From Haloferula helveola (lineage in GTDB: Bacteria > Verrucomicrobiota > Verrucomicrobiia > Verrucomicrobiales > Akkermansiaceae), in NCBI RefSeq assembly GCF_037076345.1, contig NZ_AP024702.1, positions 1,178,001 through 1,242,000 of the forward strand: a DNA stretch of 64,000 bases, given 5' to 3'. The notes beneath the pieces are model-generated. The model had not been told where the DNA came from. It saw only the letters and a program-made list of their open reading frames with translations, and did not search any database. The position numbers and the translations under genes were made by a program. This document shows positions 3,339 to 27,655 of this stretch, piece by piece (within the stretch, counting starts at the first letter, position 1; every line of letters starts with the position of its first letter).

Positions 3339-4612
3339 ACTACTTGAACCGTCGTACGTTTCTCAAGGGAGTCGGGGTGAGCCTCGGCCTGCCGCTGCTC
3401 GAAGGCATGCAGCCGGTGTTCGGCCGCGCGTCCAGGGCTGCAGCCGCGGGCTCCGACGTCCGGCGGATGGTTGCGATCAATTCGCCGCTCGGCATCCACA
3501 CTCCGAACCTCTTTCCGGCCGGCACCGGACGTGACTACGAAGTGACACCGTACCTCGAGCCGCTGCAGGCGCTGCGCGAGAAATTCACGATCATGTCCGG
3601 CCTGATGCACCCGGACGTCGACGGTGGCCACGCCGCCGAGCAGAGTTTCCTGACCGGCGCGGCCCACCCCGGGCAGCCGAGCTTCCGAAACACGATCTCG
3701 GTCGACCAGTTCGCCGCCGAGCGGATCGGTCATCTCACACGGGTGCCCTCGCTGTCGCTTTCCGCCAACAACGCGGGGCTTTCCTACAGCCGCTCCGGAG
3801 TGAGGATCCCACCGGAGTCGCGCCCGTCACGGCTGTTCGCGAAGCTGTTCCTCGAGGGATCCGAACAGGAAAAGGCCGCGCAAATGCGCCGGATCCAGGA
3901 CGGTCAGAGCATCATGGACTTGGTGCGCGAGCAGACTCGCGGAGTGATGAAATCGGCCAGTCAGTCCGACGGCGAGACACTCGACCAGTATTTCACCAGC
4001 GTCCGTGAACTCGAAGAGCGGCTGGTGCGCGCCGAGGACTGGGCGCGCCGCCCGAAACCGGAAGTCGATCAGGAGGCGCCGACCGACATCGAGGACCGGG
4101 CCGACTTCACCGGCCGGATGGAACTGATGTATGACCTCATCTTCCTGGCCCTGCGCACCGACTCGACGCGGCTGGTCACCTTCGCCGGGGCGGGAGGCAA
4201 CGAGGTCGTCGACCTCGAGGGGGTCGATGACGGCTGGCACAACCTCAGCCATCATGGCAAGGACCCGGACAAGATCGGCAAGCTGGCGATCATCGAACTG
4301 GAGGAAATGCGGCTGTTCGGCGAGTTCCTGAAGCGCCTCGAATCGGTGGAAGAGGGCGGGCGCACGTTGCTCGACCAGACCGCCATCGTGCTCGGCTCGA
4401 ACCTCGGCAACGCCTCAAGCCATAACAACACCAACCTCCCGATCCTCGCGGCGGGGGGGCGCTTCCGCCACGGCCAGCACCTCGCCTTCAATCCCGACAA
4501 CCCGCCGCCCCTCTGCGATCTGTTCGTATCCTACCTGCAGCACCTCGGGCTGGAGGCGGGCGAGTTCTCGACCGGCAAGCGGACACTCGAAGGGCTGGAA
4601 GTCGTCTCCTAA
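3335..4612 (+). CDS. DUF1552 domain protein, Tat-type signal
   Basis: A 425-residue DUF1552 protein, which in PVC bacteria is nearly always encoded directly after a DUF1592/1588 cytochrome, as here (ATGA overlap). The N-terminus NRRTFLKGVGVSLGLPLLEG is a twin-arginine signal, so it is exported folded to the periplasm. The body shows the family pattern: an INSPLGIHTPNLFPAG segment, a SGLMHPDVDGGH motif, and a C-terminal GSNLGNASSHNNTNLPILAAGG block reminiscent of the DUF1501/alkaline-phosphatase-like fold. The function is unknown; the fixed pairing implies it works with the cytochrome, and the nearby sulfatases suggest a shared polysaccharide or organosulfur context (inference). Confidence 0.93.
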   Translation: MNYLNRRTFLKGVGVSLGLPLLEGMQPVFGRASRAAAAGSDVRRMVAINSPLGIHTPNLFPAGTGRDYEVTPYLEPLQALREKFTIMSGLMHPDVDGGHAAEQSFLTGAAHPGQPSFRNTISVDQFAAERIGHLTRVPSLSLSANNAGLSYSRSGVRIPPESRPSRLFAKLFLEGSEQEKAAQMRRIQDGQSIMDLVREQTRGVMKSASQSDGETLDQYFTSVRELEERLVRAEDWARRPKPEVDQEAPTDIEDRADFTGRMELMYDLIFLALRTDSTRLVTFAGAGGNEVVDLEGVDDGWHNLSHHGKDPDKIGKLAIIELEEMRLFGEFLKRLESVEEGGRTLLDQTAIVLGSNLGNASSHNNTNLPILAAGGRFRHGQHLAFNPDNPPPLCDLFVSYLQHLGLEAGEFSTGKRTLEGLEVVS

Positions 4613-4704
4613 GCCGGTTTCCCGGCAGCCTCCCTGCACGCCGCATGGAGGAACCTTTTCGCCTCGTCTGCCGCCCCCCGTACCCTAGCATCGGCGAGAT
4701 CCCC

Positions 4705-7700
4705 ATGATGCCCCTTCCCTCCGTGGCGCTGCTGGCGGCGCTTGCGCTCCCGGCACTCGCTTCCTTTCCCGAGCCGCCCGAACGGCCGAACTTCATCGTC
4801 ATCCTCATGGATGACTGGGGCTACAACGACATCGGCTGCTACACGTATCCCGACAAGACCGACTACTACCCGAACGCCGGTCCAGCCCCGAACTTCCCGC
4901 AGACCGATCCCGACATCCCGGCCCCCAACCTCGCCCGCACCCTCACCCCGCGGCTCGACCAGATGGCCGACCAGGGGATCCGCTTCACCAGCTACTACTC
5001 GTGTGCCCGGAACTGCACGCCGGCCCGGGCCAGCCTCGTCACCGGTTGCTATGCGCCAAGGGTCGACATGCCGGACGTCATCAACCCGAACACCAACTTC
5101 GGGCTCAACACGACCGAGATCACCATCGCTGAGATCCTGAAGACGCAAGGCTACGCGACCGGCATGGTCGGCAAATGGCATCTCGGCTACAACCCGGGCC
5201 AGCTACGAGCTTCGCAGTACCTACCGATCCGGCACGGCTTCGACTCGTGGCTCGGGATCCCCTACAGCAACGACATGTTCCAGGTGGAGAATTTCCTCAT
5301 CGAGGACGAAACCCCGGTCCTCACCATGGGCACCGGCTGGGCCAATGCCGGGGACAACCAGCACACCATCAACTGGCGTTACACCGAGCGCGCCCTCCAG
5401 TTCATCGAGGATCACCAGGCCGGGCCGTTCTTCCTCTATCTCGCCCACAGCATGCCGCACGTGCCGACCTGGCCGTCGCTCACCACCTTCACCAATGCGG
5501 ACGGCACCACCTGGCCGCAGTTCGCCGGCGCCAGCGGCCATGGTTACTACTACGACATCGTCATGGAGATCGACCACTCCATGGGCCGCATCCTCGACCG
5601 GCTCGAGACGCTCGGCATCGACGACCGAACGATGGTCATCTTCACCTCCGACAACGGACCGTGGCTCAGCAAGGCCGGCATCGACCTCGATGACGTCGCG
5701 GTCGGCTCCGCCTACCCCCTGCGGGAGTCGAAGTCGACCACGCTGGAAGGCGGCCCGCGCGTCCCCTGCATCGTCCGCTGGCCGGGAATGATTCCCGCCG
5801 GGCAGGTCACCGACGAAGTGGCCGGCCACATCGACCTGCTCCCGACCCTCGCCAGGCTCGCGGGCACCGAGGCCCCGACGGACCGGGTCATCGACGGCAA
5901 GGACATCTGGCCGGTCCTCGCCGGACAACCGGGCGCCGCCTCGCCCCACTCGGAGCTCTACTATTACTCTGGCAACACGATGCACGGGGTTCGCCAGGGG
6001 CCTTGGAAATTCCGCCGGCCGAATGCCACCACCCGCCAGCTCTACCACCTCGACAACGACATCCAGGAGCGCGACAACGAGTTCGCCAACGAGCCGGTTC
6101 TGGCCGCCGAGCTCGAGGCGCTGATCGACAGCTTCGAGACCGGACTGAAGGCCGGCGAGCGGCTCCACGGCAACTACTCGGATCAGGAGATCGTCATCGA
6201 CACCACGCGCCTCACCCTCGTCGAAGGCGGGAGCGCCAGCTTCCAGGTGAAACTCGCCCAGGCCCCGGCGGGCACCGTCGGGGTCAGCGTTGCCCCGGTC
6301 TTCGGCGACGACGGAATCGTGGTGTCGAGCGGGGCCGATCTCGAGTTCGACGCGGCGACTTGGGACACCTGGCAAACCGTCACGGTGAGCGCCGAGGAGG
6401 ACACCGATACCCTCGACCGCGGGGTCATGCTCCGCTGTTCCTCGACCTCCTTCCAGCCGGTGCGGGAGGTCTTCGCCTTCGCCACCGACAACGACGCCGT
6501 CCCGCAGGTGGAAGTCGCCCTCGTCTGGCCCCGGATCCCGAGCAGCCGGATTGCCGGCACCGACGTCCTGCTCCATGCCGAGGCCTCCGCCGCGGTCAAC
6601 ACCATCGAAGACCCACCCGGCACGACCTACCTCTGGTCCCAGCCGGGCGGCCCGGGCAGCGTCACCTTCAGCGATTCGACATCCCCCGCCACCGGTATCA
6701 GCTTCCCGCTCGACGGGGCTTACACGATCGGCCTGACCGCCTCCTATCCGGGCGCCGGATCCGGGGCCGTCAGCTTCGACATCGAGGTCGGAGCCACATC
6801 CGTCATAACCCCGGCCGCCACCATCGCCCATGCCGCCGACGCCGACCCCGGGGGCGGACCGACGTGGGAAGACTCCCTCGGCGACAGTGCCCGAGATTGG
6901 TCGCTGGCCCCCGGTGTGACCCGCACCACCACCGACCCCGCGCCGTCCCTGCCCGGACTCGACGCCGCCTACGACTTCGGCGGCGGAAGCATCCCGGCCG
7001 GCGGACGCTCCCTCCATCTGGACGCCTTCAGCACCGGATCGGCCACCATTGACCTCTGGCTCCGGCCGGACGACCTGCTCGCGGCGGGCCAGCAGGTAAT
7101 CTGGGAAACCGGCGGCGACATCGGTGCCAGCTTCACCCGGCAGGGCTCCACGGTGTCGTTCGCGGTCGACGACGGCGGCTCCAGCACGGCGACCGGAGCG
7201 GTCGCCGCCGCCACTCTCGCCGCCGCGACCGGCAGCGACGGTTTCATCCACCTCGCCGGGGTGATCGACCTCGCGGGCGACGTCATCCGGCTCTACCTCA
7301 ACGGCACCGAGGCGGCCACGGCACCGATCCCGGCCGTCAACGACTGGTGCGGAACCTCTTATTCGGGCCTGGCCACCATCGCCGACTCGGTCGGCAGTGA
7401 AACGACCGCCGACGGCCACCTTGGCGGCAACGACCTGCTCGGCGGCGGGCCATGGACGACCTTCGACGGCCAGATCGCCAGTATCGGATTCTACGACCGG
7501 GTCCTCAGCCCGGCCGAGGTCGGCGACCTCTTCAGCGCGACCGCCACCGGAGGGGTCGGCCCGCAGGTCGACGCGGGTCCGGACCGCAGCATCGCCTTCA
7601 CCGCCACCGCCCTCCTCTCCGGCAGCGCCAGCGACGACGGACGCCCCGGACCCGGCCCGACCACCGAATGGACGAAGGCCGAAGGTCCGGGAATCGCCAC

Positions 7701-15957: not shown

Positions 15958-16899
15958 ATGTGGGGTTCAATGTCAGGCTCTGCCATCCTAACAACACCGG
16001 AGGAAACCTCGGTGCTACACACTGTTACCGTTACTGTCAACAACGCTTGCAATCTCAGATGCACGCACTGCTACCTCCAGTATCAATCCGACACAAACGA
16101 GCTACTCGACCCAAAGACCGTTACGTGGCTAGCAGCGTCGGAATTTGCGCACATCGCAATCGTCGGCAAAGAGCCATTGGCAAATCGTCGATCCGCAGAG
16201 TTCGTCTCCCAAGCAGTCGAACAATTCACACGGTCCGGCAAATCGGTTAGCCTGATAACGAACGGCCTCAACGCAAGACTACTCGGCTCGGAAACCGTCC
16301 AACAACTCGCTTGGATCGACATAAGCGTCGATGGTGGCATTGAGAGCTTTGGTCGGCACGGACGCGGCCCTCTTGCCTCGCTAGAACGAGCTGTGGATCA
16401 CTTCAGGGAGAAAGGGTGCAAAAAGCTTCGGAGCCTGAATACAATATCAGCCGCCAACATCAAAGACATCCCTGACATCCTCTCTCTATCAGACCATCTA
16501 GACTTTGATTTGACAATCTTTGCTCCCTACTTCCGAACCGCGAGTCTCAGGCCGCAATACGCCGAAATGGTCGCACCCAGCAGCTACTTGAAGGGTTTCG
16601 CCTCTATAAACCTCGAAAAGCGCGCGGGAAAAGTCGTCATTCTGATCGGAAGTAAATACTTTGACGCTTTCAATGAAAGCCGTAGTGACTCAATCAAAGC
16701 AATGCTCCCGCTCATGCAAGCGGGGATCCTCAAGGAAATCGATGGCGATCCGATTGATCGGGGTCTGATGAGAGTAACTTTCGATGACCTTGTTCTGAAA
16801 CCATTGGAATCTCTGCACACGGTGGGATACCAGGGTAGCGGGAGACGTGTAAACCGACTTCAAACGGCCGAGGAAACTTTTGCACGCCTCCGGAACTAG
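15958..16899 (+). CDS. Radical SAM protein linked to an ABC transporter
   Basis: 313 residues with the radical SAM iron-sulfur motif NNACNLRCTHC (Cys31, Cys35, Cys38). The next motif, normally GGEP, reads GKEP (residues 70-73), then SLITNGLNA and DISVDGG follow the usual barrel order. No second cysteine cluster (SPASM or twitch) is visible, so it is a minimal enzyme of the MoaA/PqqE superfamily. Start at 15958 or 15970; neither has a strong ribosome binding site. Its stop is 53 bases before the ATP-binding gene, and the four genes from here to 19387 look like one operon. Reaction unknown; the context suggests it modifies something moved by the transporter or uses the imported compound (inference). 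Confidence 0.85.
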   Translation: MWGSMSGSAILTTPEETSVLHTVTVTVNNACNLRCTHCYLQYQSDTNELLDPKTVTWLAASEFAHIAIVGKEPLANRRSAEFVSQAVEQFTRSGKSVSLITNGLNARLLGSETVQQLAWIDISVDGGIESFGRHGRGPLASLERAVDHFREKGCKKLRSLNTISAANIKDIPDILSLSDHLDFDLTIFAPYFRTASLRPQYAEMVAPSSYLKGFASINLEKRAGKVVILIGSKYFDAFNESRSDSIKAMLPLMQAGILKEIDGDPIDRGLMRVTFDDLVLKPLESLHTVGYQGSGRRVNRLQTAEETFARLRN

Positions 16900-16951
16900 T
16901 CACCCCGGGAACGAATTCGCCCAAATCCTGGCAAGAGTGGGTGCACTCCAA

Positions 16952-17566
16952 ATGCAATCGGACCCAACCACACATGGAGTAGAGGCAAGCAATCTAAGCT
17001 TCTCGTACGGCAGCACCCCACTGTTTTCAGACCTTAATCTGAACGTACGAGAACGTTTGGCGCTCTTTGTTGGGCCTTCTGGCTGCGGCAAGACCACCAT
17101 CTTAAAACTAATTGGAGGCTACCTTAAGCCGACCGACCAATCCACGTTCATTAACAATCCGTTCCGCACCGGCATGATTCTCCAGAATGATATGCTGGTT
17201 CCATGGCTGTCCGGAACGCGGAATATCGAACTGTTCCTGAAGCGCCCGATCGCATCCTTCCGCTCACACCCCCTCTTCGGCATGATCGAGCCGATACTCA
17301 ACCAGCCGGTCTACACCTTGTCGTTTGGACAACGCCGGATGATCGAGCTCGTTCGCGCCTTCTGCTCTGATCGAGAACTACTCCTGCTAGACGAACCGTT
17401 TAACTATCTTGACGAGAATAGAAGGGAGCGGTTTGCGAACCATATCATCAATAACACCAAAATCCGTATCATCTGCACCTCACACTATTTTGGGGAATTC
17501 ACCAACACTCACTGGGAACAGTTTCGATTTGAAGGAGACCCTCCGCACACCCACCTAATTTCATGA
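16952..17566 (+). CDS. ABC transporter ATP-binding protein, NitT/TauT type
   Basis: 204 residues from the ATG at 16952; a TTG at 16880 overlapping the radical SAM gene is an alternative. Walker A GPSGCGKTT begins near residue 41, the Q-loop is in MILQNDMLVPW, the signature is LSFGQRRMIEL (LSGGQ variant), Walker B LLLLDEP, and the H-loop TSHY. It is shorter than the usual 240-270 residues of SsuB/TauB proteins, with a compact helical region. Followed after four bases by the permease gene. Energises import through 17571-18317 (inference from operon). Confidence 0.92.
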   Translation: MQSDPTTHGVEASNLSFSYGSTPLFSDLNLNVRERLALFVGPSGCGKTTILKLIGGYLKPTDQSTFINNPFRTGMILQNDMLVPWLSGTRNIELFLKRPIASFRSHPLFGMIEPILNQPVYTLSFGQRRMIELVRAFCSDRELLLLDEPFNYLDENRRERFANHIINNTKIRIICTSHYFGEFTNTHWEQFRFEGDPPHTHLIS

Positions 17567-17570
17567 TCGA

Positions 17571-18317
17571 ATGAAATCAGCGATCAGGCAATTCATAACC
17601 AAGGCCATCGCATGGACACTACCGCTCACCATCTGGTTGGCGGTGAAGTACGGATTTCAAATCTCCGATCGTTACCTTCCAAGCCCCATAGGGGTGTTCT
17701 CAGCAGCGAATTCGTTGGGGCCAGCGCTACTGATAGACACCCTTCACACCTCCATCCGTATCATTCTAAGCTTCGTTCTCGGCTTGGGATTCGGCCTCAC
17801 CACGGCTCTTCTCTGCTTTCGAGCTTCACTCTTACGTCATCTCATCCCGATGGTGAATGCGCTACGCGCCGTCCCCCCGATCGCAATGGTGCCGTTCTTC
17901 CTACTTTGGTTCGGTTTCTCAGAATGGGGTAAGATCCTGCTGCTTACCGCTGGTCTAGGGCTCAATGTATTCGTCGCAATCGCCGACAAACTTGAGTCTC
18001 CGGATAGGGACGCTACTATAATGTTTAAATCGTTCGACATTGAACCAAGAACCCTGGTTTCACAGTACTGGTTCCAAGCTACCTTAGAGGGCTTGCTACC
18101 CACACTGCGGTTCGGCCTAGCTATGGCAATTGGCGTAGCACTTGTCGCCGAAATGCTAGGCTCACAGACTGGCCTTGGTCACGTCATACAAATTTCTCGC
18201 GCCACGTTCTCAATGGACGTAATTTTCTTAGCTGCTGCAATTCTCGGCACCATAACGGTAGCCTTCGACCGCCTCTTAATCGTATTCTGGAGACATCTGA
18301 TTTACTGGAAACAATGA
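17571..18317 (+). CDS. ABC transporter permease, SsuC/TauC family
   Basis: 248 residues with the arrangement of a binding-protein-dependent inner membrane component: about six hydrophobic segments, the opening ...RYLPSPIGVF, and the family block LRAVPPIAMVPFFLLWFGFSEWGKI. The EAA-like loop follows in the C-terminal half (ALVAEMLGSQTGLGHVI). Four bases separate it from the ATPase gene, and its stop overlaps the start of the binding protein gene (ATGA). Permeases of this family serve nitrate, sulfonate, taurine, aromatic acid or thiamine-precursor importers; the substrate here is unknown. Confidence 0.93.
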   Translation: MKSAIRQFITKAIAWTLPLTIWLAVKYGFQISDRYLPSPIGVFSAANSLGPALLIDTLHTSIRIILSFVLGLGFGLTTALLCFRASLLRHLIPMVNALRAVPPIAMVPFFLLWFGFSEWGKILLLTAGLGLNVFVAIADKLESPDRDATIMFKSFDIEPRTLVSQYWFQATLEGLLPTLRFGLAMAIGVALVAEMLGSQTGLGHVIQISRATFSMDVIFLAAAILGTITVAFDRLLIVFWRHLIYWKQ

Positions 18318-19387
18318 ACGCCTCAAAACAGAAGCCACGTCGCATCAAATTCACGATGGCCACTCTCGGCCTCGTTACGCTACTTACGCTAGCGGCAGCA
18401 ATCGTTTGGACCAATCGCGATGGGAATTCGGGAAAACAGTCGATAACAGTCGCCATAGCGCCATACCAGGACCAAGGCATGCTCGTTAACTACAAGCATC
18501 TTGGACTTGAGGAAAAATACGGCGTTTCAATCAACCTTATTACACTCCCATTTGAAGATATTGTTCCCTCGGTAGCAAGCGCCAGCGCGGGCGCAGACAT
18601 TGGATTTGGAAGCTTCATAGGCTACTTAAACCAATACAAGAACCTGAACACCGACTCCGACGACCCTGTTCTATTTGTCTATCCTGCCTATGTCTTCAAA
18701 GGTGGTGGATTTGTGACTTTCGATAAGGGCATCAAACCACTCCGCGAAACTGGAGTAGTATCACAATATGCGTCTGACATTCTCCAGAACGAGAAATTCG
18801 GTTATCCTGATAAGAGCATCTACGAACTGGTGCTAGCCCATGTCGCCAGATCAAACGATGTACCATTATCCGAAATCGACACCCACAAGATTGTCATCGA
18901 AGATGGCCTACTAGCCGCTCAATCCGGCGCCCTCGACATTGCCGCCGCAGGACTCACCCAACTCAACGAGACAAAGAGACGCGGCGGCGAAATTGTCTTC
19001 ACAATGGACGATGTTGGATTCGCGGACATTACCGGATTCCTAGTGAAGGAGAGTACAATGCGCGAGCGGGGTGACGACGTACGTGCGGTCATCCAAATGT
19101 GGTTTGAATGCGTCGCATACGTTATGTCAGACATTGAAGGCAATAGCCGGGAAACCATTGACTATCTGGACAGGCAAGCCGCAACGAAGTACACTATAGA
19201 TGAATTCAAGGCTGCGATTGAGCAGGAGTATTTCCCTACCACAACTGCCGAGGCTTACAACGAAACGATGACAGAAGAAGGGAAGTTCTCACACCAAGGT
19301 ATTCAAGAGACAGTAATCGCTTTCTTTGGCCTTAGCGAGACCATACAGATAACCCCACTGCCTCCAGGCTCATTCAAGACACCTTGA
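18314..19387 (+). CDS. ABC transporter substrate-binding protein, NMT1/SsuA-like
   Basis: 357 residues. A basic N-terminus and one hydrophobic segment (MATLGLVTLLTLAAAIVW) without a lipobox suggest a membrane-anchored or cleaved periplasmic protein. The body opens ITVAIAPYQDQGMLVNYKHLGLEEKYGV, the NMT1/SsuA pattern, and continues with a VASASAGADIGFGSF hinge region. Overlaps the permease gene by four bases. Unusual: the region around residues 240-330 is acidic and longer than I expect for SsuA. The ligand cannot be inferred; the upstream radical SAM gene argues against a plain sulfonate system. Confidence 0.85.
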   Translation: MNASKQKPRRIKFTMATLGLVTLLTLAAAIVWTNRDGNSGKQSITVAIAPYQDQGMLVNYKHLGLEEKYGVSINLITLPFEDIVPSVASASAGADIGFGSFIGYLNQYKNLNTDSDDPVLFVYPAYVFKGGGFVTFDKGIKPLRETGVVSQYASDILQNEKFGYPDKSIYELVLAHVARSNDVPLSEIDTHKIVIEDGLLAAQSGALDIAAAGLTQLNETKRRGGEIVFTMDDVGFADITGFLVKESTMRERGDDVRAVIQMWFECVAYVMSDIEGNSRETIDYLDRQAATKYTIDEFKAAIEQEYFPTTTAEAYNETMTEEGKFSHQGIQETVIAFFGLSETIQITPLPPGSFKTP

Positions 19388-19461: not shown

Positions 19462-21501
19462 ATGCCTCAAAATGTAGCGAAAAGCAGATGCTTGCGGTGC
19501 AAGCAGCTTTCAGAGGAAGGTTCGCCGGTATCAGGCTTGGACTGGGCATTTCATATCACGCCCCATCCGAATATTTTCTCCCTCGGATACTTTCTCACAA
19601 CCCAGGTATTTGACAAACCCTCCGGAATTCCAAAGGATCTTAAGGAGAGCGCTAGTTTACTAAGAAGCGCTTTGGCCCGACAACCCACGCTTGAACGCAT
19701 CATCCTGATGGAGTTCGACACTCGAGAGACCCGAACGCCCGAGTTCCGGTGGTGTGATTGCGAGTTTTTTGTAGGGACCGATGATTCCGTACAGTCCCTC
19801 GTTGAGCAGGGGCACCGTATACTACGAGTCCCACTTACCAATTATAAGCTGCATGCGATCTTCAGACGAAAACATGGAGAGCAAACTCACGCCGAGGATA
19901 CGGAAACCGACGATGCGGAAACCGAAGATAAGGTAATAATCACCGATAGTAGGCCATTGGTGGATACACTTATCACAGCACTCAAAGAACTCAAAGAACT
20001 TAAACCTAAGCACAAGCTACTGGAAATCATCGACCCGGAGACCAGCCCCGAACAGGCAAGGCTTCCGTCAGAAATCACATTCAAAGACGCGTGCAACTAT
20101 GATTCTCCAAAACTGTATATTCTTACAGCACCAGGAGTTGACGTCTATGTGGATAAGGCGAAGCAACCTGACACCCTCATTTCCGAGCACCTAATAGACA
20201 TCAGTGTTCCAACTTTTATCTGCGCTCGAATCAACACGGGACTTCTCCAAGATGAGAACAAAGTCCTCAAATGCCTCACCAGCCTACAAGGGATTTTTGC
20301 TTACATCGTTGAGCGCTCGGTAGACTTCGCTAAGCTTACCCCTGATTCCCCAAAGGCCGACGATTTTTGGGTCGAATATTTTAAGAATTCTTCAGAAGTC
20401 TACGATCGCATCACCCGTGATCATGAGAATCTGATTAGCCCTTTCGTCCGGTATCGGTTCGACATCGATAGAGGTCGAACCATAAGCGATGATAGATTTA
20501 GGGAACAACTGACGCGGCCTAGACGTTTTGCGAATATCATATCACGTCACGCAGAACCCCCGGATTCCATCGATTCCGAGAAAGATGGACCTCGATCTGA
20601 GGATATCGCCGCACAGGTGCTCGAGCTTCATCGCCTAAGACCTGCGGCAGGTTCAAAGTTAGTGCTCACACACTACTGTGATCTGGATACTGTTTGGGCA
20701 ATGCTGAACTCCGCCAAAGATGATTCGAAACGCAGCAATCCGGGGCTCCGCCTCTGGGCGACGCCAGTGAATCTGCTGAACGATGAAATGGAGGGCCAAG
20801 AACTTTTCAAGTGGATCGAGAAGGCACTTTCCAAGAACCAAGGGGCATCGAAACTCTCCAACTATCTCCAATGGATTCGAGAGCCTCCTGGGACAAACTC
20901 ACGAGGACTGATTACAGTTACCACAAGCTTTTCCTTGGAAGACAGCTTTGAAGAGGCTGGAGATAACTTGGACATGTGGAGGGCGTATGGAGGCAATAAT
21001 GGCGTTGCCCTAACGATGGAGCTTGATCACGGTTTCGACGAGTTGAGTCAACTCTACGCAGTAAAATACGCCGATGACGAATTCGCTCGGACTTGGGCAC
21101 TACTTCAACGGGAGTGTGTTAGTTGCCCGAAGGAAGTTGAAGGTCACCCTGATTCGTTTTGGATGAATTTGGAGATGCTGCGTTTTTGCTATAAACATCC
21201 TCGCTGGCAAACGGAACGCGAAGCACGGATAATCAGACCGGTGACGATCAATGAACTCAGATCAGTCGAAGGTTGCCAAGATGGCGATGCTTCCAAAGCT
21301 CGATTCTTTGAACCTTCCGAGCCTTTTTTTATGAGAAGATCGGTTACGAATCGAACGAAAGTAACTCTAGGCCCTCTACTAAGTCAGAACAAGATTGGGA
21401 GGCATCGCGTAGCTTTGCGTGTCCGAAAGATATTCCAAGAGACGCTTGGATATGAACCTTATGTTGATTTTTCAAAGACCAAGTATCGACTGACGCAATA
21501 A
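19462..21501 (+). CDS. DUF2971 protein with a long unassigned N-terminal region
   Basis: 679 residues. From about residue 398 it matches DUF2971: KLVLTHYCDLDTVWAML, LRLWATPVNLLNDEMEG, ITVTTSFSLEDSFEEAGDNL, MWRAYGGNNGVALTMEL, and a basic RWQTEREARIIRP stretch. The first ~390 residues fit no family I recognise; they include a CLRC pair near the start, an acidic patch (AEDTETDDAETEDK, about 140-153) and a LKELKELKPKHK segment. No signal peptide or membrane segment, so cytoplasmic. The function of DUF2971 is unknown; such genes are frequent in variable genomic islands. It is convergent with the TIR-like gene, 90 bases apart, and shares the island's lower GC. Confidence 0.75.
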   Translation: MPQNVAKSRCLRCKQLSEEGSPVSGLDWAFHITPHPNIFSLGYFLTTQVFDKPSGIPKDLKESASLLRSALARQPTLERIILMEFDTRETRTPEFRWCDCEFFVGTDDSVQSLVEQGHRILRVPLTNYKLHAIFRRKHGEQTHAEDTETDDAETEDKVIITDSRPLVDTLITALKELKELKPKHKLLEIIDPETSPEQARLPSEITFKDACNYDSPKLYILTAPGVDVYVDKAKQPDTLISEHLIDISVPTFICARINTGLLQDENKVLKCLTSLQGIFAYIVERSVDFAKLTPDSPKADDFWVEYFKNSSEVYDRITRDHENLISPFVRYRFDIDRGRTISDDRFREQLTRPRRFANIISRHAEPPDSIDSEKDGPRSEDIAAQVLELHRLRPAAGSKLVLTHYCDLDTVWAMLNSAKDDSKRSNPGLRLWATPVNLLNDEMEGQELFKWIEKALSKNQGASKLSNYLQWIREPPGTNSRGLITVTTSFSLEDSFEEAGDNLDMWRAYGGNNGVALTMELDHGFDELSQLYAVKYADDEFARTWALLQRECVSCPKEVEGHPDSFWMNLEMLRFCYKHPRWQTEREARIIRPVTINELRSVEGCQDGDASKARFFEPSEPFFMRRSVTNRTKVTLGPLLSQNKIGRHRVALRVRKIFQETLGYEPYVDFSKTKYRLTQ

Positions 21502-21591: not shown

Positions 21592-22785
21592 TCACTCTTC
21601 AACTCGTTCGGGAGATTCTCTCTCAACCCAGCCCGGATCAATTCCCAATCCGGCAGCCGAGATTTCCCTCGCAAGGCTCTTCTTCCACTCACCCTCCTTA
21701 TCGAGTTCGAGATAGAGCGGACCACGGTAATTGGTGGGCAGCTCAATATTCGGTGTGCATAGGCAACAAACACGTTTGTCGCCCAGTAGCGCTAAGAAAA
21801 AACCAAGTTCAAAGATAGCGTTTTGGCGGGCTCGAGGTCGTTGCCCATTTGGCCCGTCGCCAGCAAAACCTCCACGATCTTTGCCGGTAAGCACTACGAC
21901 AGCAAATCCAACATCAGCGTAGTGTCGGAGCTTGGCGAGAATTGTGCTACCAACATTTGGCTGATCATCGAGTATGACCGCCTCGAGCGACAAGTCCCGC
22001 ATCAAAGAAGCGACCTCGTTCCGCTCATCGCTGCCTCTTTCATGTACTATAAAGACCTTTCGATGCGGAGTCACACGGTCGACGACTGACCGCAGCATCT
22101 CTGTCTGAACAATCTGCGCGAACAATACGGCCAATTGGTATGGATAGTATCGACTGCAAAACTTACTATCGGGATTCGGCCAATCAAACTCCTCATTGTT
22201 GTAGAGCTCTGACCTCGTATCGATGACATCAATCCGACCATTTGGAAACGCCACACCTGCCATTCTCCGTCTTTGCTCCATCGATCCTGTTGCAACATGT
22301 GCACCTTGCGGGGTATAGGTGTGGAGATAGACGGCGCCTTCAAGCAGGAAAAGATTCTCAAGAATCCTCGCCTGTATCTTTCGTTCGACACCGTCGTGGC
22401 TGGCAACCCAATCGCGGAGATGGCTCGGGTTTAGAATCCGTCGCTTGAGTTCCGCCTCTGAGATTTTGGTGTGTGTTGATCTTTCTGCAAAATACTTTGA
22501 GACCACCCCATCAATGTAGATGTAATCAACTAGCACCATATCTGCTTTTTTGCGTGACGCACGCTCAAGCTGGGCAAGAGTATCTGGGTGAAAGGTCCAT
22601 GAGTCCCTCTCTGGAGATTCATCCAGATACTGTCTCTCCAAGACAATATGCACCATTGACACCAACACGGAGAGGCTCTGGCCTGCATTGACGGCAACTC
22701 GCATACCCGACAATCGCTCCATGACTCGGTCGCAGGTTTCCAGTTTGTCATCTATGACGACCACATGGAATTCTGTATCCGCCAT
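21592..22785 (-). CDS. Receiver-like domain fused to a CAP12/PCTIR-type TIR-like domain
   Basis: 397 residues from the ATG at 22785 (MADTEFHVVVIDDK); an upstream in-frame start at 22902 would overlap the preceding micro-ORF and add only low-complexity basic residues. Residues ~5-115 resemble a response-regulator receiver: acidic pair VVIDD and a candidate phosphoacceptor in MVLVDYIYIDG. Residues ~243-390 match the TIR-like nucleotide-binding family (PF10137): KVFIVHERG, LDDQPNVGSTILAKL, DVGFAVVVLTGKD, RARQNAIFELGFF with Glu326 as the presumed catalytic residue. In characterised CBASS and Pycsar effectors this domain degrades NAD+ once triggered. I see no cyclase or kinase beside it, so whether this is an immune effector is inference. 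Confidence 0.8.
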   Translation of the reverse strand: MADTEFHVVVIDDKLETCDRVMERLSGMRVAVNAGQSLSVLVSMVHIVLERQYLDESPERDSWTFHPDTLAQLERASRKKADMVLVDYIYIDGVVSKYFAERSTHTKISEAELKRRILNPSHLRDWVASHDGVERKIQARILENLFLLEGAVYLHTYTPQGAHVATGSMEQRRRMAGVAFPNGRIDVIDTRSELYNNEEFDWPNPDSKFCSRYYPYQLAVLFAQIVQTEMLRSVVDRVTPHRKVFIVHERGSDERNEVASLMRDLSLEAVILDDQPNVGSTILAKLRHYADVGFAVVVLTGKDRGGFAGDGPNGQRPRARQNAIFELGFFLALLGDKRVCCLCTPNIELPTNYRGPLYLELDKEGEWKKSLAREISAAGLGIDPGWVERESPERVEE

Positions 22786-22873
22786 CCTATTAGGCTTTGT
22801 CGATTTAGCAGACCCAAAATTGCAGCGGCAGAGGCGGCGCGCTCTCACCCATCGTAAGTTGACGTCGCGGAGT

Positions 22874-23026
22874 TCACTGACACGCCTCGCACGGCCCTCC
22901 ATTCAGCGTTGCATCGATCGAACACGCGTTCTTCTTGGCTTCCCCCGTCGCCACCACCGCCGCCAAGGCTTTGGTGGTCATGAAGGCTACGAAGGACAGG
23001 TCGGTGTTTTCGAGTGAGAGCTTCAT
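22874..23026 (-). CDS. 50-residue ORF repeating the NrdA redox tail
   Basis: Its ATG overlaps the nrdA stop (ATGA at 23026-23023) and it ends at a TGA at 22874. The last 20 residues, KKNACSIDATLNGGPCEACQ, match the end of NrdA at 17 positions, including all three cysteines and the terminal CEACQ. Across those 20 codons I count nine synonymous and three amino-acid-changing differences, which argues for selection on the peptide rather than recent or decaying duplication. The first 30 residues (MKLSLENTDLSFVAFMTTKA and on) do not match NrdA. Family knowledge: the NrdA tail shuttles electrons from thioredoxin to the active site. A free tail might do this in trans or compete; unproven. Confidence 0.7.
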   Translation of the reverse strand: MKLSLENTDLSFVAFMTTKALAAVVATGEAKKNACSIDATLNGGPCEACQ

Positions 23027-26000
23027 TGGCACGCCTCACACGTGCCGCCATTGAGCATCGCATCGATGGAGCACGCGTTCTTTTCAGCTTCCGTATACTG
23101 CTTTCCGGCCATGCCGCCGCGGACTTCTTTTTTGACCGAGATGGTCGCCTTCTCGATGTTGGAGGCTTGGAGGGTGCGCAGGTAGTAGGTGGTCTTGAGG
23201 CCTTTGTCCCAGGCGCGGCGGTACATGTGAGACAGGGTCTTCATGTCCGGCTGGGCGAGGAAGAGGTTCACGCTCTGGCTCTGGTCGATCCACTTCTGGC
23301 GCCTTGCGGCCGCATCGACGATGAACTCGTAGCCGACACCGAAGACGGTGCGGTGCTTCTGCTTGATGGCCTCGGGGATGTCGTCGATGGAGTCGAGCTC
23401 GCCGTCGAAGTACTTCAGCTGGTCGAGCATTTCCTGATTCCAAAGACCCTCCTTCTTGAGGTCGTTGACCAGGGTGCCGTTGAGGACGATGAAGTCGCCG
23501 CTCAGGTTGCTCTTCACGTAGAGGTTCTTGTAGTTCGGCTCGATGCACGGGGTGGTGCCCATGATGTTCGAGATCGTGGCGGTCGGGGCGATCGCCAGGA
23601 CGTTCGAGTTGCGCATGCCGTGCTCGGCGATCTTCTCGCGGACCACGCTCCAGTCCATCTTGCCGCCGCGCGGGACGTCGAGCTCCTTGCCGCGCTCGTC
23701 CTCAAGCAGGTCGAGGGTGTCCTGCGGCAGCAGGCCGCGGTCCCACTTCGAGCCCTTGTAGGTCGAGTAGGTGCCGCGCTCGCCGGCGAGGTCGCTGGAC
23801 GCGCTGTAGGCGTAGTAGGCGATGGCCTCCATGAACTCGTCGTTGAACTCGACGGCGGCGTCGGAGGCGAAGCTCAGGCCGCGCTTGTAGAGCGCGTTCT
23901 GCAGGCCCATCACGCCCATGCCGATCGGCCGGTGGCGCGAGTTCGCGGTCTTGGCGGCATCGGTCGGGTAGAAGTTGATGTCGATGACATTGTCGAGCGC
24001 GCGGATGGCGACGGTGATCGTCTCCTTGAGCATCTCGTGGTCGAGCGCGCCGTCGGGCGTGATGTGGGTGTCGAGCACCACCGAGCCGAGGTTGCAGACC
24101 GCGGTTTCCTCATCGGAGGTGTTCAGCGTGATCTCGGTGCAGAGGTTCGACGAGTGGATGACGCCGGCGTGGTCCTGCGGCGAGCGGACGTTGCAGGGGT
24201 CCTTGAAAGTGATCCACGGGTGGCCGGTCTCGAAGAGCATCTTGAGCATGCCCTTCCAGAGGTCGATGGCCGGGATCTGGCGGGACCAGACCTTGCCCTC
24301 GGCGGCCATCTGCTCGTACTCGACGTAGCGTTGCTCGAAGGCCTTGCCGTAGAGGTCGTGCAGGTCGGGGCACTCGTTGGAGCGGAAGAGCGTCCAGTGC
24401 TCGCGGGCCTCCATGCGCTTCATGAACAGGTCCGGGATCCAGTTCGCGGTGTTCATGTCGTGGCAACGGCGGCGGTCGTCACCGGTGTTCTTGCGCAGCT
24501 CGAGGAAGTCCTCGATGTCGTTGTGCCAAGACTCGAGGTAGGCGCAGCCGGAGCCGCGGCGCTTGCCGCCCTGGTTGACGGCGACGAGCTGGTCGTTGTG
24601 CAGCTTGAGGAACGGAATGATGCCCTGCGACTCGCCATTGGTGCCCTGGATGTAGGATCCGGTGCCGCGGACCGCGGTCCACGATCCGCCGAGACCGCCG
24701 GCCCACTTCGAAAGGAAGGCGTTTTCGGCGATACCGCGGTGCATGATGCTCTCGATCGAGTCATCGACCTTGTAGAGGTAGCAGGACGAGAGCTGGCTGT
24801 GGAGCGTGCCGGAGTTGAACAGCGTTGGGGTGGACGAGCAGAAGCGGCGGCCCTTGTAGAGGTTGTAGAGGCGGATGACCCAGCCTTCGGCGTCGGTCTC
24901 CTCGCGCTTGAACAGGCCCATGGCGACGCGCATCCAGAAGAACTGGGGCGTCTCAAGGCGGCGCGGCTTGGTGCCGGTCTTGTCGACGATCAGGTAGCGG
25001 TCGTAGAGCGTCTGGATGCCGAGGTAGTCGAAGTCGAGGTCGGCGGTCGGGTCGAAGGCCTCGGCGAGCTTGTCGAGGTCGTAGGTCTCGAGCAGCTCGG
25101 GGTTGAGGCGTTTGATCGCGATGCCGTGCTTGAGGTACTGCTTGAAGGCGGCCTGGTGGGCGGCCTTGAGCTTCTCGATGCCGTCACGCTGGATCGACCA
25201 GTCGAGGACCTCCTCGTAGATGTAGGAAAGCAGGATGCGGCCGGCGAACTTGGCGAAGTCGGCGTCCTTCTCGATGAGTGACTTGGCGTTGAGGATGACC
25301 GTGTTGCGGAGGTCGCGCTCCTTGATCTCGGCGCCGACCGAGCGGCGGAGTTCGCGTTCGATCTCGGCCTCGTCGAGGCACAGGTCGAGGCCGATCGAGG
25401 CGAATTGGATGCGCTTCTTCAGCTCAAGGCCGTCCCAAAGTCTGGTTTCGCCGTCGTCGGTGGTGACCGAGATGAAAAGGTCCTGCGCCGACTCGTCGGG
25501 CGAGGCTTCCTCGTCGATGCGCAGGCGGGCGCGCTCGTCGCGGTAGCGGATGTAGTGCGCGGCGGCCTTGAAGTGGCCCTGGCGCATCAGTTCCTCCTGC
25601 ACCATGTCCTGGACGTCCTCGATGTGGACGAACGACTGGTCACCGGTGCGGACGAGCTCGGTCACCGCCTTGGCGATGTCGGCCGCTGGCTCCGGGATCT
25701 CGTGGATGGTGAGGAAGGCCTTGCGGACGGCGATCTCGATCTTGGTCTCGCTCCACGGCACCACGTTGCCATTGCGGCGGATCAGGCGGACCGGCAGCGC
25801 GTGCGGCTGGGTGCCCGCGGCGATAGAGCCGCCCTGCTCCATCGAGCGGCGGAAGGCGAGCGACTTGGCGACATCGTAAGCGTCGTTGTCGAGCAGCGCC
25901 TTCTCGATGAGGAGGTAAAGATCGGCCTCGGAAAGACGGAGGCGGCCGCCTTCGTCGATCGACTTGGTCAGCGAGTTGGCGACGGCGTGAGCGACGTCGG

Positions 26001-26304
26001 AGACGAACTTGCGGTTCTCCTCGGTGAAGATGCTGTCTTCCTTCTCCTTGCGGGCGATCAGCAGGTCGGTGAGCGAGTGGCCGATCGCGTCGGCGACGTC
26101 ATCGAGGGTGAAATTGGCTTCCTGATTGCCGCGCAGCACGACGATGTCGGGCATCGGCTTGCGGCGGTCGGTCGAGAGCACGCCGCGCCAGTCGAAGCTC
26201 CGGCTTTCCGGTCCCCCACCCCCTTCGCCGGCGGCTTGGGCGAAACGGTCGGTGATGACTTGCTTGAGCAACAGATCTTCGTCGAGGGTGAGGTTGGAGT
26301 ACAT
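23023..26304 (-). CDS. nrdA: Ribonucleoside-diphosphate reductase, large subunit (class I)
   Basis: 1093 residues, against about 760 for E. coli NrdA; the extra N-terminus holds ATP-cone-like domains (around residues 50-160, the clearest at ~170-265 beginning LPVRLIRRNGNVVPWSETKI, and possibly a third). Long multi-cone large subunits are also seen in chlamydiae. Catalytic landmarks: SSCYLYKVDD (first active-site Cys), SNLCTEITL with Asn720, Cys722 (thiyl radical) and Glu724, AVCNLGS (partner Cys), radical-transfer pair Tyr1040-Tyr1041 in KTTYYLRTLQAS, and a C-terminal tail NACSIDAMLNGGTCEACQ. Reduces NDPs to dNDPs with NrdB, encoded 259 bases upstream on the same strand. No Shine-Dalgarno is visible. 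Confidence 0.97.
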   Translation of the reverse strand: MYSNLTLDEDLLLKQVITDRFAQAAGEGGGGPESRSFDWRGVLSTDRRKPMPDIVVLRGNQEANFTLDDVADAIGHSLTDLLIARKEKEDSIFTEENRKFVSDVAHAVANSLTKSIDEGGRLRLSEADLYLLIEKALLDNDAYDVAKSLAFRRSMEQGGSIAAGTQPHALPVRLIRRNGNVVPWSETKIEIAVRKAFLTIHEIPEPAADIAKAVTELVRTGDQSFVHIEDVQDMVQEELMRQGHFKAAAHYIRYRDERARLRIDEEASPDESAQDLFISVTTDDGETRLWDGLELKKRIQFASIGLDLCLDEAEIERELRRSVGAEIKERDLRNTVILNAKSLIEKDADFAKFAGRILLSYIYEEVLDWSIQRDGIEKLKAAHQAAFKQYLKHGIAIKRLNPELLETYDLDKLAEAFDPTADLDFDYLGIQTLYDRYLIVDKTGTKPRRLETPQFFWMRVAMGLFKREETDAEGWVIRLYNLYKGRRFCSSTPTLFNSGTLHSQLSSCYLYKVDDSIESIMHRGIAENAFLSKWAGGLGGSWTAVRGTGSYIQGTNGESQGIIPFLKLHNDQLVAVNQGGKRRGSGCAYLESWHNDIEDFLELRKNTGDDRRRCHDMNTANWIPDLFMKRMEAREHWTLFRSNECPDLHDLYGKAFEQRYVEYEQMAAEGKVWSRQIPAIDLWKGMLKMLFETGHPWITFKDPCNVRSPQDHAGVIHSSNLCTEITLNTSDEETAVCNLGSVVLDTHITPDGALDHEMLKETITVAIRALDNVIDINFYPTDAAKTANSRHRPIGMGVMGLQNALYKRGLSFASDAAVEFNDEFMEAIAYYAYSASSDLAGERGTYSTYKGSKWDRGLLPQDTLDLLEDERGKELDVPRGGKMDWSVVREKIAEHGMRNSNVLAIAPTATISNIMGTTPCIEPNYKNLYVKSNLSGDFIVLNGTLVNDLKKEGLWNQEMLDQLKYFDGELDSIDDIPEAIKQKHRTVFGVGYEFIVDAAARRQKWIDQSQSVNLFLAQPDMKTLSHMYRRAWDKGLKTTYYLRTLQASNIEKATISVKKEVRGGMAGKQYTEAEKNACSIDAMLNGGTCEACQ

Positions 26305-26563: not shown

Positions 26564-27655
<1,092 letters not shown>

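Follow-up and report, generated by a model that had tools for sequence, protein, structure and literature searches.

The window, a stretch of 64,000 nucleotides from Haloferula helveola, carries the ribonucleotide reductase genes nrdB and nrdA on the minus strand, and a second copy of the nrdA 3′ end lies just past the nrdA stop codon. The names nrdA and nrdB were taken from the sequences and from an earlier reader. The features at the locus are:

19462 to 21501, plus strand: a 679-aa protein with DUF2971 (PF11185, E 1.6e-6; weak PADLOC match to PDC-S31, E 2.1e-5).
21592 to 22902, minus strand: a TIR-domain protein with a TIR of the CAP12/Pycsar type (PF10137, E 2e-23; PADLOC PDC-S35, E 8.4e-48).
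22873 to 22943, minus strand: the second copy of the nrdA 3′ end, displaced or duplicated, about 23 codons long and recognised by a 71-nt repeat and by alignment score.
22874 to 23026, minus strand: a 50-codon ORF made of a spacer and the tail copy, its ATG overlapping the nrdA stop.
22946 to 23022, minus strand: the spacer, 77 nt from the nrdA stop to the tail copy, which makes up the early part of the ORF.
23023 to 26304, minus strand: nrdA, an ORF for the large subunit (1093 aa), whose own tail has CEACQ at its end.
26564 to 27655, minus strand: nrdB, an ORF for the small subunit (363 aa), used as the control for the 3′-end test.

The original prediction had described a free-standing copy of the NrdA redox tail in an ORF beginning on the nrdA stop codon, and this ORF is indeed present. 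Its ATG overlaps the TGA of nrdA, and its product of 50 aa, MKLSLENTDLSFVAFMTTKALAAVVATGEAKKNACSIDATLNGGPCEACQ, ends in NACSIDATLNGGPCEACQ. We refer to the tail copy inside the ORF as the mini tail and to the current nrdA end as the present tail. The first 27 residues or so are spacer and not tail. The frame is open over 53 codons, and the ORF listing begins it at a GTG, which gives 52 aa. The mini tail matches the NrdA redox tail at 17 of 20 residues and keeps all three cysteines, as had been claimed. Local alignment of nrdA tails against the 20-kb flank gave a best score of 42, the maximum for codon-shuffled tails being 23.0. At the DNA level, the two tails form a direct repeat of 71 nt with 80% identity and a start-to-start spacing of 149 nt. 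They differ in 14 codons over 23, and in 12 over the last 20; nine of these 12 differences are synonymous, the count reported before, and the three replacements are E to K, M to T, and T to P. The TIR ORF as listed overlaps the tail copy, and its protein likely starts at an ATG near 22785. Further downstream, at 15958-19387, inspection by eye finds a radical-SAM-like protein, an ABC ATPase, a permease, and a substrate-binding protein.

Within the spacer, 27 nt resemble the equally placed spacer of G183, which belongs to the same family but to a different genus (score 32, against at most 23 in 2000 shuffles). Two candidate identities of the spacers were rejected. The window spacer is single-copy in its own genome (G000) and its next best match is weak and short (E 0.03), so it does not behave as a dispersed repeat; the palindrome in the G183 spacer, considered as a REP element, has no copy in G000 and 0 to 7 copies across eight genomes with up to 2 mismatches.

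Free tails recur elsewhere. nrdA was matched in 34 of 38 relatives, the window's own genome counted. A scan of the order (191 genomes, 126 with a tail match) found a second tail in eight genomes, namely G000, G008, G101, G147, G172, G180, G183, and G194, and a scan of the family (260 genomes, 122 with a tail match) found extra tails in 14, namely G000, G008, G172, G180, G183, G194, G250, G259, G266, G273, G295, G349, G359, and G360. These counts leave out a second G012 match (34% identity, in a frame of 841 aa that contains a stop), as well as single matches in short frames at contig edges or with nrdA unseen (e.g. G128, G154, G155, G196, G245, G257). At the DNA level, 20 extra copies were examined. 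Thirteen of them, from 11 genomes, share contig and strand with nrdA and follow it at distances of about 0.1 to 3.1 kb, and the other seven are on other contigs. Ten copies keep the three cysteines and a final in-frame stop (G000, G008:C5, G172:C4, G180, G194:C74, G250, the first copy of G295, the far copy of G349, G349:C20, and G359); in two of them, G250 and G349:C20, a stop immediately precedes the tail. The other ten are damaged in a cysteine, the reading frame, or the stop. Specifically, G008:C2 has indels, G101 has lost the stop, G266 is frameshifted, G273 has an in-frame stop, and the near copy of G349 begins past the first cysteine; the first cysteine is changed to Gly in G183 and G259, and a cysteine is changed to Gly in the second copy of G295, to Arg in G147, and to Ser in G360. 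In four copies (G295 first, G359, G147, and G349 far), an ATG stands no more than three codons from the point at which the homology to nrdA begins.

A search with a profile built from 21 tails retrieved 366 tail-length proteins from metagenomes, among them OKA05_14080 of Luteolibacter arcticus. Many sit on short contigs and may be cut genes, and some are on contigs of 161 or 192 kb. Of the 40 proteins examined among 120 listed, which were picked mainly by length and contig size, nine start with M[PST]TI[DN][VIL]KKE; such starts are biased by gene callers, which select for starts, a bias of which the genome copies are free. The pattern M[PST]TIDVKKE as the mark of a widespread gene was rejected, as the genome collection gives one real case (the contig of G295) and three others in unrelated organisms, the chance expectation being about 0.5 by our own arithmetic. 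Carriage by plasmids or phages was likewise dropped: neither the plasmid nor the phage collection contains a match to P0003, and the start pattern is absent from viral contigs. CTGAACACTGAAAACT, considered as a cassette mark, occurs exactly before three extra tails (G295, the near copy of G349, and G266), but it also precedes nrdA itself in G295 and L015 and is hence taken for a dispersed leader.

We then inspected the flanks of nrdA. The downstream flank is hypervariable. Within 3 kb downstream, none of the 25 ORFs of at least 100 aa from eight congeners has a counterpart in another's same flank, compared with 19 of 25 within 3 kb upstream, largely nrdB and its neighbours; within 12 kb, counterparts exist for 13 of 83 ORFs downstream and 33 of 68 upstream. 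A 132-aa gene common to G015, G002, and G006, at 3.0, 8.3, and 13.9 kb downstream, respectively, is a candidate far border. Families of defence type adjoin nrdA in seven of the ten congeners scanned with Pfam, G000 included: TIR and DUF2971 in G000; C5 methylase, HD-CE, and ORC-CDC6-like in G002; E2, ThiF, JAB, and patatin in G006; PRTase-CE, ORC-CDC6-like, and methylase in G008; two DCD, GmrSD_N, and AAA in G009; M78 peptidase and aGPT-Pplase3 in G011; and C5 methylase and MTaX1 in G015. We take these families to be defence genes partly on the strength of their Pfam names, PADLOC having been run on ten proteins only. The Pfam scan of nrdA-adjacent proteins returned no family in G007 and G014, and HATPase in G012. 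G003, G013, G016, and G017 were outside the scan.

Defence-like genes also follow eight of the nine extra tails, out of 20, whose next genes were scanned (G000 and G008:C5 included). Behind the tail lie CD-NTase and TIR-STING in G250, C5 methylase in G147, C5 methylase and GmrSD_N in G359 (away from nrdA), AAA and C5 methylase in G183, a TPR protein with a PIN-TPR-GreABC match in G273, and a PADLOC PDC-S60 match in G008:C2; G180, with a weak ABC match only, is the exception. In G259, the followers look pilin-like by eye.

The relationships of the tails bear on which copy is older. In G008, the displaced tail matches those of G006, G007, and G011 at 53, 52, and 51 of 60 positions, and the present tail at 46, 48, and 43. 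As the displaced tail is closer to the near relatives, the present tail of G008 looks imported. In the window, the four best matches of the present tail (52/60) are in other genera and its best congener reaches 48, while the mini tail has its best match (50/60) in another genus and two congeners next with 49. The direction agrees with displacement, with rank tests on the origin of the two tails being non-significant (p 0.125 and 0.15). By BLAST, the present tail is 88.7% identical over 62 nt to an extra tail of G295, and together with the first part of the spacer it is 78% identical over 105 nt to G183, both of other genera; the mini tail is 83% identical over 65 nt to the nrdA end of the congener G002.

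Exchange of nrdA ends was also examined by synonymous differences, for which the genome pairs share genomes and hence are non-independent. In every one of the 12 congeneric pairs that are closest to each other, synonymous differences are more frequent at the nrdA 3′ end than in the body (median +0.218); the nrdB end shows such an excess in four of the 12 (median -0.021). In the 13 pairs with the window's genome, the excess occurs at the nrdA end in 13 (+0.132) and at the nrdB end in ten (+0.062); in 79 other pairs, the two ends are alike (+0.047 and +0.054). The step seemed general at first sight, and the nrdB control limits it to the closest pairs. In addition, the nearest neighbour is congeneric by the tail in 0.52 of 28 genomes, and by windows of the body in 0.57 to 0.96 (mean 0.77), which suggests a moderate loss of genus signal in the tail relative to the body.

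Taken together, we consider it probable that the mini ORF is a scar, and that cargo DNA, anti-phage genes included, has repeatedly landed at the nrdA 3′ end in this family. The incoming DNA would consist of a donor nrdA end followed by cargo and would pair with the resident nrdA. One crossover would be homologous, giving the resident gene a new working tail together with the cargo. The other end would be joined at the old tail or slightly ahead of it, with no homology involved, either by homology-facilitated illegitimate recombination or by insertion-duplication. The old tail would stay downstream as a displaced 3′ end, which in the window may be the segment of about 23 codons starting about 80 nt past the present stop. 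The open spacer and the old tail would then be read together as the 50-codon ORF, which is perhaps translated, a function not being required. The spacing (149 = 3 x 49 + 2) and the sequence at the stop, CAATGA, put the ATG in frame with the old tail. By our own estimate such a match is not rare, the requirements being the right one of the three frames and about 27 codons of spacer without a stop. Several observations count against the scar. The flanks of G003 and G017 resemble ordinary genes on inspection, seven of the 20 copies are on other contigs, and the single best match of the mini tail is in another genus. The same holds for the non-significant rank tests in the window, for the likeness of nrdA and nrdB ends outside the closest pairs, and for the merely moderate loss of genus signal. 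Moreover, the four near-start ATGs and the nine common starts among 40 short proteins amount to more order than scars require.

In another reading, NrdA-tail minigenes would form a mobile module of this family, carried by defence cassettes at their upstream edge. The minigene would serve as a homology arm through which a cassette lands behind nrdA and restores its end, and intact copies, of the M[PST]TIDVKKE type and perhaps the ORF of the window, would be translated as free redox peptides. A role as portable arm, and at low probability a translated function, is kept alive by the near-start ATGs, the common starts, a small cassette found next to the tail in G250 and again in G295 (70% over 1272 nt), and the boundary between G183 and G259, which are alike until the stop of the second tail and different beyond. 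We regard this module as unlikely overall; were it real, a redox peptide acting in trans would be part of ribonucleotide reductase.

The original prediction had suggested a separate tail peptide, coupled in translation to nrdA, that could act in trans, bind thioredoxin, or compete with the tail of NrdA. As a rival to the scar, this would be a stand-alone redox-tail gene whose product carries electrons to NrdA in trans or competes with the enzyme's own tail. The free tail is real and looks coding, it has its three cysteines and the preponderance of synonymous differences, free tails recur with plausible starts, and the ATG-on-stop overlap is found also in G183 (ATG) and, as GTG, in G259. The copied segment carries the same cysteine motif as the redox-active C-terminal tail of class I enzymes, in which CXXC occurs in 1737 of 2022 sequences; the passages of that source dealing with the tail place it within the large subunit and describe no separate tail peptide (PMC9531940). 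Conservation of such a gene is not supported. A search of the protein collection requiring shared five-residue words returned for the 50-aa peptide only itself, and the ORF occurs in none of the 13 other congeneric genomes with a readable nrdA end, four further congeners having no match. One of the 13, G008, holds a different tail copy about 1.1 kb downstream of nrdA. An 8-codon scrap in G014 was dropped as a tail copy (score 15, control 21.5), and a slight excess over the shuffle control in G003, G006, G011, and G030 (up to 2.5 points) was taken as noise. Copies farther out could be missed where the flank is short, i.e. in G013 (162 nt), G016 (1.8 kb), G007 (3.5 kb), G014 (4.7 kb), and G003 (7.9 kb).

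The state of the copies also speaks against a gene of this kind. The N-terminal half of the ORF is not common to other copies, half of the 20 copies are damaged by frameshifts, stops, or lost cysteines, and those of G183 and G259, which have the overlapping start, lack the first cysteine. Both grounds on which the prediction could be refuted, absence of the ORF from close relatives and frameshifts or stops, apply in large part. The Met to Thr replacement of the mini tail falls in a column that is invariant across 21 NrdA tails, and the same change occurs in the G008 copy; a search with the Met-to-Thr tail pattern gave no match. The state of the extra copies, this change included, looks like relaxed constraint. 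Purifying selection on the ORF, also part of the prediction, has the synonymous excess in its favour, but the same excess is expected if the tails diverged beforehand as working nrdA ends. Only tails that diverged in place would make it evidence of selection on the peptide; otherwise the signature is inherited. Some copies may be translated, several of them keeping a neat start codon, yet a dedicated redox-tail gene seems to us quite improbable.

We give equally little credence to two further routes. A local tandem duplication of the nrdA end within the lineage, without foreign DNA, would fit the close spacing of 149 nt, and in G180 a 244-nt direct repeat of 99% identity includes the tail. The copies of the window, however, differ at 20% of sites with nine synonymous differences per 20 codons, a divergence larger than that of the nrdA body from G012 or G013, for which 100-nt windows are mostly 0.86-0.98 identical. 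The changing cargo is also left unexplained by duplication, which makes this route a poor candidate.

Alternatively, a site-specific integrase could insert elements at the nrdA 3′ end, as at tRNA genes, and leave copies of the attachment site. Gene 3′ ends are classical attachment sites, the copies are mostly downstream on the same strand, and the similarity of G183 and G259 stops exactly at the stop of the second tail. Integrase-borne islands reportedly enter the end of a protein gene, dusA, at its 5′ end and by a known integrase; the nrdA insertions resemble them in lying at a gene end and differ in using the 3′ end and in that no integrase is seen. Among the 40 cargo proteins scanned with Pfam, which are part of the cargo, no integrase or recombinase family was found, and the repeats are 46, 71, 87, 168, and about 178 nt long with differing start points, so that there is no fixed core. 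Integron-type integrases above the NCBIfam cut-off occur in 8 of 18 congeneric genomes and 0 of 14 control genomes. Those of G000 are at G000:C1:972093-973034, 3255688-3256605, and 3457223-3458161; none is beside nrdA, where an integron cassette array would have its integrase, and all are at least 228 kb away. The lack of a recombinase in the scanned proteins and the varying repeat lengths render an integrase improbable.

We then compared the probable landing site with known systems. Passages on T6SS effector/Rhs loci describe C-terminal displacement with orphan 3′ ends, for which homology-facilitated illegitimate recombination is the proposed route (PMC5361080). The nrdA locus is like the loci of those passages in having a constant upstream gene, a 3′ end that probably changes, old ends downstream, and foreign cargo (PMC5361080). 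It is unlike them in that nrdA is an essential enzyme gene whose end, if swapped, keeps its function, and in that its cargo consists of independent defence genes instead of a new toxin end with an immunity gene (PMC5361080). At nrdA, the 13 copies downstream on the same strand, with G008 the clearest case, correspond to the old 3′ ends; as for cargo that would arrive with a new end, the cargo differs from genome to genome. In Pseudomonas aeruginosa, core defence hotspots are flanked by core genes, and nrdA similarly is a conserved gene bordering a stretch with a different defence system per genome (PMC10250203). Unlike in these hotspots, the end of the border gene itself is copied and left behind, and the abstract of that report has no mention of such copies (PMC10250203). 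In a library of open-licence papers, the titles retrieved include none on a stand-alone NrdA tail or a hotspot at the nrdA end, and no paper there pairs Luteolibacter with nrdA.

Should the scar reading be right, defence systems across a bacterial family would share one point of arrival, the end of an essential housekeeping gene, and each displaced tail would record an earlier insertion. Tail copies could then serve as markers in the search for defence cassettes, also away from nrdA, as in G359, G008:C2, and G273. The case would also illustrate that an excess of synonymous differences in a duplicated peptide is compatible with a scar, since both copies may have evolved within working genes first.

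Aside from these results, several individual loci were inspected. In L157 (G250), a CBASS-like pair of a CD-NTase and a TIR-STING effector occupies 4361-6483, directly behind the extra nrdA tail. G250 (L157, 8317-10498) and G290 (L171, 2700-4881) share the same methylase-like two-gene cassette behind nrdA, with 86% identity over 2182 nt, in flanks that are otherwise different. In L013 (G008), a repeated fragment from about 155 to 958 nt past nrdA has a weak match, below cut-off, to PF18762 (polyvalent-protein kinase), and similar stretches occur in L161 and L171 and partly in L007 and L016. The direct repeat of G180 (L136, 1105-1348 and 2304-2547) consists of the nrdA tail and the start of the next gene; its two copies enclose about 1 kb that contains an EngB-like ORF, close to the contig end. 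The repeat may be an insertion-duplication or an assembly artefact. In L140 (G172:C4), at about 1870-2075, the nrdA tail is fused in frame behind what appear by eye to be the remains of a REP-associated transposase.
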